Positions 14,330-20,493 of a stretch of 64,000 nt of DNA are shown piece by piece; position 1 is the stretch's first letter, and each line of letters opens with the position of its first letter. The position numbers and the translations under genes were made by a program. Origin of the DNA: Solirubrobacterales bacterium (GTDB taxonomy: Bacteria; Actinomycetota; Thermoleophilia; Solirubrobacterales; Solirubrobacteraceae); the NCBI GenBank assembly GCA_003138355.1, contig PLFX01000052.1, forward strand, positions 1-64,000, given 5' to 3'. Below the pieces are notes generated by a model, which ran no database searches, was not told the origin of the DNA, and was given only the letters and a program-made list of their open reading frames with translations.

Positions 14330-16870
14330 ATGGCCGGTGATGTGCTGACGGGCGGCAACATCGAGCCCCGCGCGATTGAGGACGAGATGCGCACGGCGTT
14401 CCTCGACTACGCGATGTCGGTAATCGTCTCGCGCGCTCTCCCGGATGTTCGCGACGGGCTCAAGCCGGTCCATCGCCGCGTCCTCTACGGCATGCGCGAG
14501 CTAGGCCTTTCGCGCTCCTCGCAGAAGGTGAAATGCTCGCGCATCGTCGGCGAGGTCATGGGTAAGTACCACCCGCACGGCGACAGCGCGATCTACGACA
14601 CCCTGGTCCGACTCGCGCAGGACTTCTCGATGCGCTACCCGCTCGTCGAAGGTCAGGGCAACTTCGGCTCGGTCGACGACGACCCTCCGGCCGCGATGCG
14701 CTACACCGAGGCGAGTCTCGACCGACTCGCGCTCGAGATGATGCGCGACATCGAGATGGACACGGTCGATTTCGTGCCGAACTACGACGGCAACGAACAG
14801 GAGCCCGTGGTCCTCCCGGCGCGCTTCCCGAACCTGCTCGTCAACGGCTCGCAGGGCATCGCCGTTGGCATGGCGACAAACATCCCGCCGCACAACCTGC
14901 GCGAGGTCATCGACGCGACGGTCGCCTACATCGAGCGCCCCGAGATCACCCTCGAGGAGCTGATGAAGCACGTCAAGGGTCCCGACTTCCCGACTGCCGG
15001 CATGATCCTCGGCCGCGCCGGCATCAAGGACGCGTACGAGACCGGGCGCGGACGGGTGCGCGTACAGGCGCGCGCACACACTGAGCCGCTGACCCACGGC
15101 AAGGAGGCGATCGTCGTCACCGAGCTGCCCTACATGGTCAAGAAGGGCGGCGACAACGGGCTGATGGTGAAGATCAAGGAGCTCGTCGAGGCCAAGCGCA
15201 TCACCGAGATCTCCGACCTGCGCGACGAATCCGACAAGCGCGGCATGCGCCTCGTCATCGAGCTCAAGCGCGACGCGATCCCCAAGGTCGTACTCAACAA
15301 ACTTTTCAAGCACACGCCGATGCAGACCACCTTCGGCGTGAACATGGTCGCGCTCGTCGACGGCGTTCCGCGCACGCTCTCGCTGCGCGAGGCGATCCAT
15401 CATTACGTCGAGCATCAGCGTGACGTCGTCGTCCGGCGGTCGAAGCACGAGCTCGCGAAGTGCGAAGCGCACGCCCACATCCTCGAAGGGCTGCTCATCG
15501 CGATCGACAACCTCGACGCGGTGATCGAGCTAATCCGGCGCGCCAAGGACCGCGCAACCGCCCGCGAGGGACTGATCAGGCACTACAAGCTGACCGTGAT
15601 CCAGGCGCAGGCGGTCCTCGACCTGCGTCTTGCACAACTGACCGCCCTCGAGTCAGGGCAGATCCGCCAGGACCACGCCGACACGCTCGAGCGGATCGGC
15701 GAGCTGCGCGCGATCCTCGGCGACGAGTTGCGCGTGCTCGCCCTGATCAAGGAGGAGCTGATCGAGATCCGCGATCGCTACGGCGACGAGCGGCGCACGG
15801 AGATCTCGCACGCCGAAGGCGAGATCGACATCGAGGACCTGATCGCCGACCAGCAGATGGTGATCGCGATCACCCACTCCGGCTACATCAAGTCGCTGCC
15901 GCTCGACACCTACCGTGCCCAGCACCGCGGCGGCCGTGGAGTCACCGGCATGGATATGAAGGATGGGGACTTCATCGAGCATCTCTTCATCTGCTCGACG
16001 CACGACTACCTGCTGTTCTTCACCAACCGCGGCAAGGTCTACCGGTCGAAGGTCTACGACCTGCCGGAGGCCTCGCGTACCGCGAAGGGGCGTGCGCTCG
16101 TCAACATCCTGCCGCTGCGCGAGGGCGAGCGCGTGCAGTCGGTGCTCTCGACGCGCGACTACAGCGAGGGCCGTTACCTGATCTTCGCCACGCGCAACGG
16201 GATCGTCAAGAAGACCGAATTCGCCGCGTACAACACGCCGATCAACGCCGACGGGATCATCGCGATCAACATCCGCGATGACGATGAGCTCGTGGCGGTG
16301 CGGCGCACCAGCGGCGAGGACGACATCCTGATGGTCTCGCGCAACGGCAAGGCCGTGCGCTTCGCCGAGTCCGCCGTGCGCGCGATGGGTCGCAACACCT
16401 CCGGCGTCAAGGGCATGAAGGTCGCCGAGCGCGACAACTGGGTGCTCGCGATGGATGTCGCCGGCGACACCCACGAACTGCTCGTGCTGACCGAGAACGG
16501 GTACGGCAAGCGAACCGCGCTCAGCGACTACCCGCGCAAGGGCCGTGGCACGATGGGCGTCAAGACGATCGAGTTGACCGCGACCAAGGGTGGTCTCGCC
16601 GGCGCGCTCGTCGTCCGCGAGCACGAGGAGCTCGTTTTCATCAGCGCCGGCGGGATGGTGCAGCGCACCGGGGTGCGCGGGATCAACCGCTACGGGCGCG
16701 CCGCACAGGGCGTACGCCTGATGAACCTCCGCGAAGACGACACGGTCAGCGCCGTCGCGCTCGTGGCCGAGGCGAGCGAGCCCGCAATCACCGACCCGGA
16801 CCCCGCCCCCGACGCGCCCGCAATCGCCGCCCCCGACTCGCCCGAGCCCAGCCCGAACGGCCAAGCCTGA
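14330..16870 (+). CDS. gyrA: DNA gyrase subunit A
   Basis: 846 residues. The DNA-cleaving subunit. The quinolone-determining region reads [17 protein letters not shown], with Ser and Asp at the classic resistance positions (no obvious resistance change); the active-site Tyr is in AAMRYTEA. The C-terminal beta-pinwheel contains the GyrA box as HRGGRGVTG. The last 30 residues are a Pro/Asp-rich tail. A strong ribosome site (GAGAGGAGGTGAA, 14312-14324) precedes the ATG, 24 bp after gyrB. Confidence 0.97.
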
Positions 16871-16896
16871 GCGCCGCGTACGGCGCTCGAGTTTTC
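16870..16896 (+). terminator. gyrA terminator hairpin
   Basis: AGCGCCG (16870-16876), loop CGTA, CGGCGCT (16881-16887), then CGAGTTTTCC. A perfect 7-bp stem followed by a short T run right at the gyrA stop, so an intrinsic terminator. Confidence 0.65.
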
Positions 16897-16910: not shown

Positions 16911-17169
16911 CTACTCTGGAGATACCAGAGAAAGGAGGTGGTCCCTACGTTGGCTGACAGTACTTGCGGGACTCTGGAGGTGGCCGGCCGTTAGGTCGGA
17001 GAAGTCGGCTGGACCCGCCTAGCGGAATCCAACCCGGACCACCGTCGTACAGGTCGCCGGACCTAGTCCCTCCGGCAAGCGCGTCAGTGCACGCGTGGCG
17101 TGACGCGTAAAGCCTGGCCGATCAAGTCCAAGGTCGTCGGAAAGGCCGGGCGCAAAGCCCGGCCTTTCC
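16911..17169 (+). ncRNA. Structured RNA with embedded 14-codon ORF (novel candidate)
   Basis: A self-contained plus-strand unit between the gyrA terminator and its own terminator. It starts with a hairpin CTCTGG-AGATA-CCAGAG (16914-16930), followed by an unusually long anti-16S match AGAAAGGAGGTG, a 14-codon frame, a CCGGCC-GTTA-GGTCGG hairpin (16984-16999), a segment GGACCACC (17036-17043) that exactly complements GGTGGTCC of the ribosome site (16937-16944), then hairpins AGGTC-GCCG-GACCT and CGCGT-CAGTGC-ACGCG. CCAGAG can pair instead with a second CTCTGG at 16972-16977, so two folds compete. No plus-strand gene follows for over 3 kb, so it is not an ordinary leader. I do not recognise the family. 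Confidence 0.55.
16950..16994 (+). CDS. 14-residue peptide in the structured RNA
   Basis: TTG start at 16950 and TAG at 16992-16994 encode MADSTCGTLEVAGR. The ribosome site AAAGGAGGTG (16931-16940) sits 11 nt before the start and is one of the strongest in the window. The peptide has one Cys and no membrane segment. It could be a sensor leader peptide whose translation opens or closes the GGTGGTCC/GGACCACC pairing, or a small functional protein. Translation is inferred from the ribosome site only. Confidence 0.45.
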   Translation: MADSTCGTLEVAGR

Positions 17170-19362: not shown

Positions 19363-20493
19363 CTACTTGCTGAAGCGCACGTAGTAGACCTGCGTGTTGT
19401 TCGAGAGGTCCTTCTCGCCGGCGACCGGAAGGACGGCTGCCGTAAGCTTGAGCACGGGCCCGATCGGCGGCGTCTGCGGGAACCCGAGCGTCGCTGAATA
19501 GGGGTCACCCGGCTGCGTCTCACGGGTTTCCTGAGAGGCCGTCAGAGTCGACGTGGAGGCGGACGAGAGCGTCAGTTGGGTGTGGACGTCGAACTCGTCG
19601 TTGGCGCCGTCGTTGGTGAAGTCGACCGTGAACGTCAGTCCCTTGGTGTAAGTGATCGGGTTGATCACGCCCGAGCCCTGGGCGAGGGCCGTGCCGCCGA
19701 CGAGCACGTCGACCAGGGCGTGGCCGTGGGGACCGGTGCCGACCGCGCCGCCCAGCGCCGGCGGCGTGTAGCCGAGGATCTTCCCTGCCACGTACCCCGC
19801 GGTCGTCCACGACTGGTCGGGGAGGAACGCTGCGCCGTAAACGGCGCCTGTGCCGATCTGGATCCCGGCGTTGGTGAGTGCCTGCTCGATCAGCGGCGCG
19901 GCGCGCACCTTGTAGAGGATGTCGGAGGCGTAGATCATCCCCATGTCGCCGGCGATGTCCTGGATCTGCGCGTTACCGCCGGGGCCGTTTATCGCCTGCA
20001 CGATCGCGGCTTGCACCTTGTCGATCGCCTCGTAGCGCAGGTCGAGGACGATGAGAAGATCGCGCTGCGCGTCGGCGCAGGAGCCGGGCACGCTCCAGCC
20101 GGCGGCGGTCTGCGCGTCCATCCTCGCCGTCACGGCGTCCTGGTAGAGGTTCGATTGATCGGCTGTCAGCGCCTGACCGGACGTGCCGGCGATGTTGTTC
20201 AGCGTGCCAAAGAATTGCTGGGCCACCTGCTGCTGCTCGTTCTGAAGCAGCGTCGTGACGTTGCTGTTGTAGTTCTTGAGCGCCTGCGTTTGCTGGCTCG
20301 TGAGGTAGGCTCGCAGCCCGAAGACCACGACGACGACGACGACCACGAGCGCCGCGATCGCTCCGGCCCGGCGGGCCAGGACGGTGCGCTCATCGAGCGG
20401 CCGGCGAGGCGGTTGGCCGCGGACGCGTCGGCCCGGCCGGCGCTCAGTGGCGATGGTTGTACGGGGCTCGTCACCCTCTTCGAAGAACGACAA
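19363..20493 (-). CDS. Unknown single-pass membrane protein
   Basis: 376 residues. A basic cytoplasmic N-terminus (RRPGRRVRGQPPRR), one membrane segment (AGAIAALVVVVVVVVFGLRAYL), then a large outer part: a helical region rich in Gln (LLQNEQQQVAQQFFGTL) and a C-terminal beta-rich domain (TFTVDFTNDGANDEFDVHTQ ... ETQPGDPYSATLGFP) that resembles a CARDB/Ig-like fold. TTG start with AAGGAG 6 nt upstream. Not recognised beyond this. Its head-to-head placement with a membrane kinase gene is worth noting. Confidence 0.75.
   Translation of the reverse strand: MSFFEEGDEPRTTIATERRPGRRVRGQPPRRPLDERTVLARRAGAIAALVVVVVVVVFGLRAYLTSQQTQALKNYNSNVTTLLQNEQQQVAQQFFGTLNNIAGTSGQALTADQSNLYQDAVTARMDAQTAAGWSVPGSCADAQRDLLIVLDLRYEAIDKVQAAIVQAINGPGGNAQIQDIAGDMGMIYASDILYKVRAAPLIEQALTNAGIQIGTGAVYGAAFLPDQSWTTAGYVAGKILGYTPPALGGAVGTGPHGHALVDVLVGGTALAQGSGVINPITYTKGLTFTVDFTNDGANDEFDVHTQLTLSSASTSTLTASQETRETQPGDPYSATLGFPQTPPIGPVLKLTAAVLPVAGEKDLSNNTQVYYVRFSK

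Follow-up and report, generated by a model that had tools for sequence, protein, structure and literature searches.

Ms_IGR-5 (RF02471) is filed in Rfam as a family of actinobacterial small RNAs (sRNAs), listed without a function. Its homologues are ribosome-protected in footprints from M. abscessus and M. smegmatis (PMC4974804), and relatives have been recorded as an RNA-seq transcript in S. lividans (PMC8079986) and as an sRNA unit in S. avermitilis (PMC8780764). The open-access papers that we found list Ms_IGR-5 only as an sRNA and describe neither a conserved open reading frame (ORF) in it nor an internal Shine-Dalgarno (SD) sequence (SD2 below); no sRNA papers under M. tuberculosis names near Rv0812/Rv0813c were found in the open-access literature. 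Here we describe an autonomous RNA gene that lies 3′ of gyrA, on the forward strand between position 16924 and ca. 17170 of a 64,000-nucleotide stretch of Solirubrobacterales DNA (contig PLFX01000052.1; hereafter, the window). We estimate at roughly 60% the probability that it specifies a stand-alone sRNA and divergent Ms_IGR-5 homologue in which translation of the RNA's own micro-ORF gates the fold. The translation-centred anatomy of the family, with a conserved SD sequence at the stop codon, is new with respect to the papers found.

BLASTN detected the element in ca. 50 of 61 related genomes. The RF02471 model gave matches at the same places as BLASTN in ca. 28 of 41 relatives, nearly always end to end, the best of them with 43.9 bits (E = 1.8e-8 per whole genome). 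A search of 6 kb of the window aligned model positions 1–184 with 16924–17101, scoring 25.9 bits with E = 0.0058. The curated gathering cut-off of 45 bits was reached by none of the 41 relatives, and since the window's score is also below it, its RNA is treated as a divergent homologue and not as a formal Rfam member. For the reciprocal search, we combined 41 copies from the window's clade into a covariance model, R1. R1 matched a Mycolicibacterium locus (L122; 36.4 bits, E = 5e-7) that RF02471 scores at 175.5 bits, matched Nocardiopsis (L098; 61.5 bits) and Acidimicrobiia (74–84 bits), all three at full length, and recovered L068, L127 and others end to end. By covariance in both directions, the window RNA is a divergent branch of Ms_IGR-5; the original prediction, made from the window's letters alone, had been unable to name a family.

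In family and order alike, the element is single-copy. A strict pattern was found in 76 of 99 family genomes, once per genome, while a reversed control pattern gave no matches. One family genome carries an extra match (G309:C158:10634-10696) that lacks the conserved ORF tail and resembles a chance match inside a gene. Identity to the three closest relatives (L003, L004 and L215) is 88–90% in the RNA and 78–85% in flanking gyrA, so that, by this measure, the RNA is better conserved than its neighbour. The family also extends past the actinobacteria. Copies from Zixibacteria (L153, 55.9 bits) and Acidobacteria (L104, 47.7 bits) exceed the RF02471 cut-off, and those from Sumerlaeota (L129) and Myxococcota (L140, L183) give weaker but full-length R1 matches. 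Nitrospirota (L170, L209) and Bryobacterales copies are alike in architecture only by inspection or at marginal scores. On this basis, relatives occur in Acidobacteriota, Zixibacteria, Sumerlaeota and Myxococcota, and probably also in Nitrospirota.

The elements of the window RNA are as follows.

16912–16917, forward strand: −10 promoter element TACTCT; TAnnnT stands at this conserved spot in most copies.
ca. 16924, forward strand: predicted 5′ end of the RNA, where the RF02471 match begins.
16925–16929, forward strand: 5′ arm of helix P1, CCAGA, covarying with 16973–16977.
16931–16944, forward strand: SD1, the extended SD sequence AAAGGAGGTGGTCC, near-invariant and the top anti-SD complement in the window.
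16950–16994, forward strand: micro-ORF MADSTCGTLEVAGR, TTG start, 14 codons, TAG stop; an in-frame start-type codon and stop are present in 169 copies.
16968–16972, forward strand: GGGAC, with candidate partners 5′ GTCC (16941–16944; RNAalifold) or 3′ GTCCC (17066–17070; single-sequence fold).
16973–16977, forward strand: 3′ arm of helix P1, TCTGG, covarying with the 5′ arm.
16977–16982, forward strand: SD2, internal SD sequence GAGGTG, 9 nt before the stop codon, near-invariant and always in frame.
17010–17014, forward strand: TGGAC, post-stop strand of helix P4, pairing with the conserved motif TCCAGTC/GTCCAGC close to the 3′ terminus.
17034–17043, forward strand: anti-SD2 strand CCGGACCACC, forming helix P2 with 16979–16987 with one bulge, according to covariation tests.
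17056–17076, forward strand: 3′ hairpin GCCGG...CCGGC with GTCCC in the loop, showing compensatory changes.
17126–17130, forward strand: GTCCA, 3′ strand of helix P4, from motif counts against shuffles.
17139–17169, forward strand: terminator-type hairpin closing the unit, seen in the sequence; the closing hairpins of relatives from other phyla have clear T runs.

The sequence features named in the original prediction are all present: AGAAAGGAGGTG at 16929–16940, GGTGGTCC at 16937–16944, its exact complement GGACCACC at 17036–17043 (91 nt lie between the two), CTCTGG at 16914–16919 and 16972–16977, and a single CCAGAG at 16925–16930. The match to the 16S rRNA is as exceptional as was claimed. 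The duplex of SD1 with GGAUCACCUCCUUUCU has an energy of −29.0 kcal/mol, the strongest in the 64 kb when both strands are scanned, and the next-best site reaches −23.2 kcal/mol. AAGGAGGTGRTCC occurs once in the 2.76-Mb assembly, and the 16S tail GGATCACCTCCTTTCT is exact in all seven complete or near-complete relatives checked. Since AAGGAGGTGATCC, the complement of the 16S 3′ end, was sought in the assembly and not found, the 16S gene of this genome is probably missing from it. A tRNA-Ile(GAT) gene lies at 2262–2335 of the window, with no rRNA genes nearby.

Start and stop of the micro-ORF are both kept, in a single frame. An in-frame start-type codon lies within 8 nt of SD1 in 169 of 169 copies, compared with 21–45% for the other two frames; where no better codon existed, the start was assigned by position. 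The 58 copies of the window's clade start with TTG (30), ATC (17), CTG (8), ACG, ATA or ATT (1 each), and neither ATG nor GTG was seen among them or, by eye, in the family pattern listing. Elsewhere (111 copies) the starts are TTG (46), ATG (41), GTG (13), CTG (9), ACG (1) and ATT (1). The stop codon (TAG in 131, TGA in 27 and TAA in 11 copies) follows GAGGTG by exactly 9 nt, or three codons, in 169 copies. The SD2 codons are always in frame, GAG in 169/169 and GTG in 168/169 copies, and they are never replaced by synonyms. Loci L096–L215 were chosen by a pattern containing SD1 and GAGGTG, and therefore their SD content is not independent; in the L001–L095 subset, found by BLAST or the Rfam model yet located with a pattern tolerating one mismatch in GAGGTG, the counts are 79/79 for GAG and 78/79 for GTG.

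Two covarying helices involve these elements. In P1, the 5′ arm pairs with the three bases ahead of SD2 and the first G of SD2, through pair variants that include CCAG/CTGG, CACG/CGTG, CGCG/CGCG, CTTC/GAAG, CGAG/CTCG and CCGG/CCGG. At the three varying positions, 145–152 of 168 copies are paired, against 74–115 in shuffles, which, like all our shuffle controls, ignore the relatedness of the copies. In P2, SD2 and the codons that follow it pair with a downstream strand, with 4.11 extra base pairs compared with 2.40 when SD2 flanks were swapped among the 168 copies; the family covariation score was reached by none of 500 shuffles. Unaided, RNAalifold returned P1, GUCC:GGAC, P2 and the 3′ hairpin. 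The strongest structural support, as far as comparison goes, is the variety of P1 pair types across phyla. The downstream CTCTGG is thus a strongly covarying partner of CCAGAG, as predicted. By contrast, the predicted switch helix between SD1 and GGACCACC showed no changes on both sides and hence no covariation, and only 14 of 41 family copies form the full set of eight pairs, even with G-U counted; the GGACCACC strand covaries instead with SD2 inside the ORF.

In the 3′ part, a GTCC that could serve as the second GGGAC partner is present in the hairpin loop in 142 of 146 copies, where chance would give 56%, with the flanking pair formed in 108 of 142 copies against 74.5 in shuffles, and the minimum-energy fold of the window pairs GGGAC with the 3′ GTCCC. 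Of 44 clade copies, 39 contain the P4 motif TCCAGTC/GTCCAGC, whereas shuffled controls gave 9.0, and compensatory variants occur, for example in L041, L048 and L211. Since P4 crosses P2, the two would form a pseudoknot or exclude each other.

The RNA appears as an independent unit. TAnnnT is present in 131 of 168 copies, compared with ca. 23 expected, nearly always 7–8 nt ahead of the 5′ arm, and L160 carries TTGACA-N17-TAGGAT. It follows from this spacing that the RNA begins at ca. 16924, with SD1 within 10 nt of its start, and that the upstream CTCTGG is outside it; that copy overlaps the −10 hexamer, and the proposed competition of two CTCTGG copies for CCAGAG has to be abandoned. Strict consensus scans for promoters and terminators gave no hits at the region. 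The 17139–17169 hairpin is strong but GC-rich with a short T run, which is why a simple terminator scan did not list it; a T-run terminator closes the unit in Zixibacteria, Myxococcota, Sumerlaeota, Rokubacteria and Nitrospirota copies. The arrangement gyrA, RNA, convergent HNH gene is kept in 26 loci of the window's taxonomic order, and in mycobacteria, where the neighbourhood is unrelated, the RNA lies between an aminodeoxychorismate-lyase-like gene and a convergent FABP/nitrobindin-like gene (neighbours were named from their proteins, not by profile search). No plausible forward-strand gene was found 3′ of the RNA until a kinase ORF at 20457, in agreement with the predicted gap of more than 3 kb. 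With its own −10 element, one copy per genome and a convergent neighbour, the element is by these comparative signs a free-standing single-copy transcription unit, as the suggestion of a free regulatory RNA had it. At the gyrA end, a hairpin GAGCGCCG/CGGCGCTC followed by GAGTTTT (16869–16891) is probably the gyrA terminator.

Comparison among copies supports the transcription unit, SD1, the in-frame start and stop, the SD2 spacing, P1 and P2. Since a near-perfect SD1, a 14-codon frame and an SD2 just before the stop stand together, ribosomes probably switch the fold of this RNA. Without a ribosome, the resting RNA would enclose SD1 in the P1 hairpin and hold SD2 paired in P2. A 30S subunit whose 16S tail is intact would then be captured by SD1 and would open P1, and the ribosome would read ca. 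12–17 codons and melt P2 on reaching the stop. There, SD2 would be ca. 8 nt upstream of the P-site codon, and because this is the geometry of an initiation complex, a post-termination subunit could stay anchored at SD2. Meanwhile, release of the anti-SD2 strand and the 3′ domain would let them refold (P4, GGGAC:GTCCC) and act in trans. The signal would be the act of translating rather than the peptide. The spacing of SD1 to start and of SD2 to stop, the absence of selection on the peptide (see below) and helices that would open in order lead to this translation-gated model, and a trans-acting, translation-gated RNA is our best reading. More tentatively, one may imagine an RNA of several phyla that senses the condition of the translation machinery, with initiation at SD1, anchoring at SD2 by the stop and release of a trans-acting 3′ domain, the Solirubrobacterales branch tuning the sensor by its non-ATG/GTG starts.

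Several points weigh against this model. The alternative GGGAC pairings and P4 are moderately supported, and the folding energy of the window RNA is unexceptional (z = −1.4). We infer that the ribosome stays at the stop, that the 3′ domain refolds and that the RNA acts in trans. Expression and ribosome contact are known for relatives only, the footprints coming from distant ones, and a tight SD could yield footprints without translation.

The main rival is a 30S decoy, in which SD1, poor starts and SD2 at the stop hold the subunit; the RNA would be a sponge for ribosomes or a hibernation RNA and would lack a downstream output. The strongest anti-SD match in the window, the exclusive use of non-ATG/GTG starts in its clade and an SD2 whose distance to the last codon suits initiation all fit this view. 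However, titrating ribosomes from one gene copy would demand very high expression, ATG starts occur in 41 of 111 copies of other actinobacteria, and the covarying P2, 3′ hairpin and P4 are left unexplained. We consider a decoy rather unlikely, though it fares better than the explanations that follow.

We also regard as unlikely that the RNA is a small mRNA for a functional micropeptide of the MADSTCGTLEVAGR type, with structure merely tuning translation. The frame, start region and stop are conserved across phyla, as in a small-protein gene, and Ser is encoded both by AGT and by TCT within the clade. But in the five codons before GGG, 2395 nonsynonymous and 218 synonymous single-base differences were counted (pairwise counts, not independent events), revealing no purifying selection on amino acids there and indicating that the peptide is not what is kept; ORF length varies widely, and conserved residues fall on paired or SD bases. 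In two actinobacterial metagenome-assembled genomes (L126 and L193), GGA GGT replaces GAG GTG in frame, changing Glu-Val to Gly-Gly, and the distance from stop to SD2 is the same within one base, which argues for the spacing, and not Glu-Val, as the conserved feature. By these counts, selection is at the level of RNA and not of peptide, and a conserved micropeptide was rejected. Thus, of the predicted 14-codon gene, the frame, start and stop hold but not selection on MADSTCGTLEVAGR, and covariation bears out P1 and P2 but not the SD1 helix.

Slightly less probable still is a purely non-coding sRNA with an incidental ORF and SD1 as a pairing or seed region, as the Rfam classification and the structured RNA might suggest; in-frame start-type codons in every copy, fixed in-frame stops of three kinds and the mycobacterial footprints (PMC4974804) speak against it. 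That the RNA acts in cis on an adjacent gene, as attenuator or leader, is already largely refuted and very improbable in spite of its leader-like ORF with alternative helices: both in the window's clade and in mycobacteria a convergent gene comes next, and the unit ends in a terminator. From the predicted attenuator or translation-sensing logic, sensing by a structured RNA is therefore what we retain in the translation-gated model.

Other RNAs came up in the searches. Rfam matches to SorX, sX14, SNORD23 and ASpks in the region were weak, mostly to the terminator hairpin or on the other strand, and were discarded. Rhodobacterales loci were rejected as family members, as R1 does not find the three that were searched and their frame differs. 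They carry another RNA with the same extended SD (L100, L101, L103, L106, L120, L123, L135, L149 and L150, and also L168, L175, L187, L192, L199, L208, L210 and L214), with an 18-codon frame (VSRVILERGVGTVRG...) and a purine-rich SD-like stretch ahead of the stop. Roughly half of these copies also have a 3′ strand, GGnCCAYCTCC, that is complementary to the SD; there was no Rfam match in the two loci scanned (L103 and L149). In SAR86 (L108 and L109), an extended SD precedes what may be an ATT-start frame, ISIYLLAGITGGAF, which has GGAGGT right ahead of its stop. A T-run terminator is also present, and an alkaline-phosphatase-like gene lies downstream.

Compared with Ms_IGR-5, the window RNA gives a full-length covariance match and has the same order of SD1, ORF, SD2, anti-SD2 strand and 3′ GTCC; it differs in its 5′ arm (CCAG, against CACG/CACA), in the non-ATG/GTG starts of its clade and in adjoining gyrA, whereas Ms_IGR-5 adjoins pabC. 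Members in mycobacteria and streptomycetes are tractable in the laboratory, so the role of the family is directly testable, and it may serve as a model of how a free RNA could gauge the availability of ribosomes, the fidelity of initiation or the intactness of 16S tails. As in leader-peptide attenuators, the position of a ribosome on a short ORF would choose between alternative helices. Unlike them, the window RNA is free and single-copy with no downstream gene; none of the aligned ORFs contains a regulatory codon run, an attenuator hallmark, and the next gene is the convergent HNH gene instead of a same-strand regulated one. Dual-function sRNAs of the SgrS type encode a small protein. The window RNA would resemble them as a free small RNA with a translated ORF, but its peptide does not appear conserved and its ORF lies within covarying structure. 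Non-ATG starts of the infC type are discriminated by IF3. The ATT, ATC, ATA, CTG and ACG starts behind a strong SD recall that system, except that here they open an sRNA micro-ORF and TTG is about as common as all of them combined.
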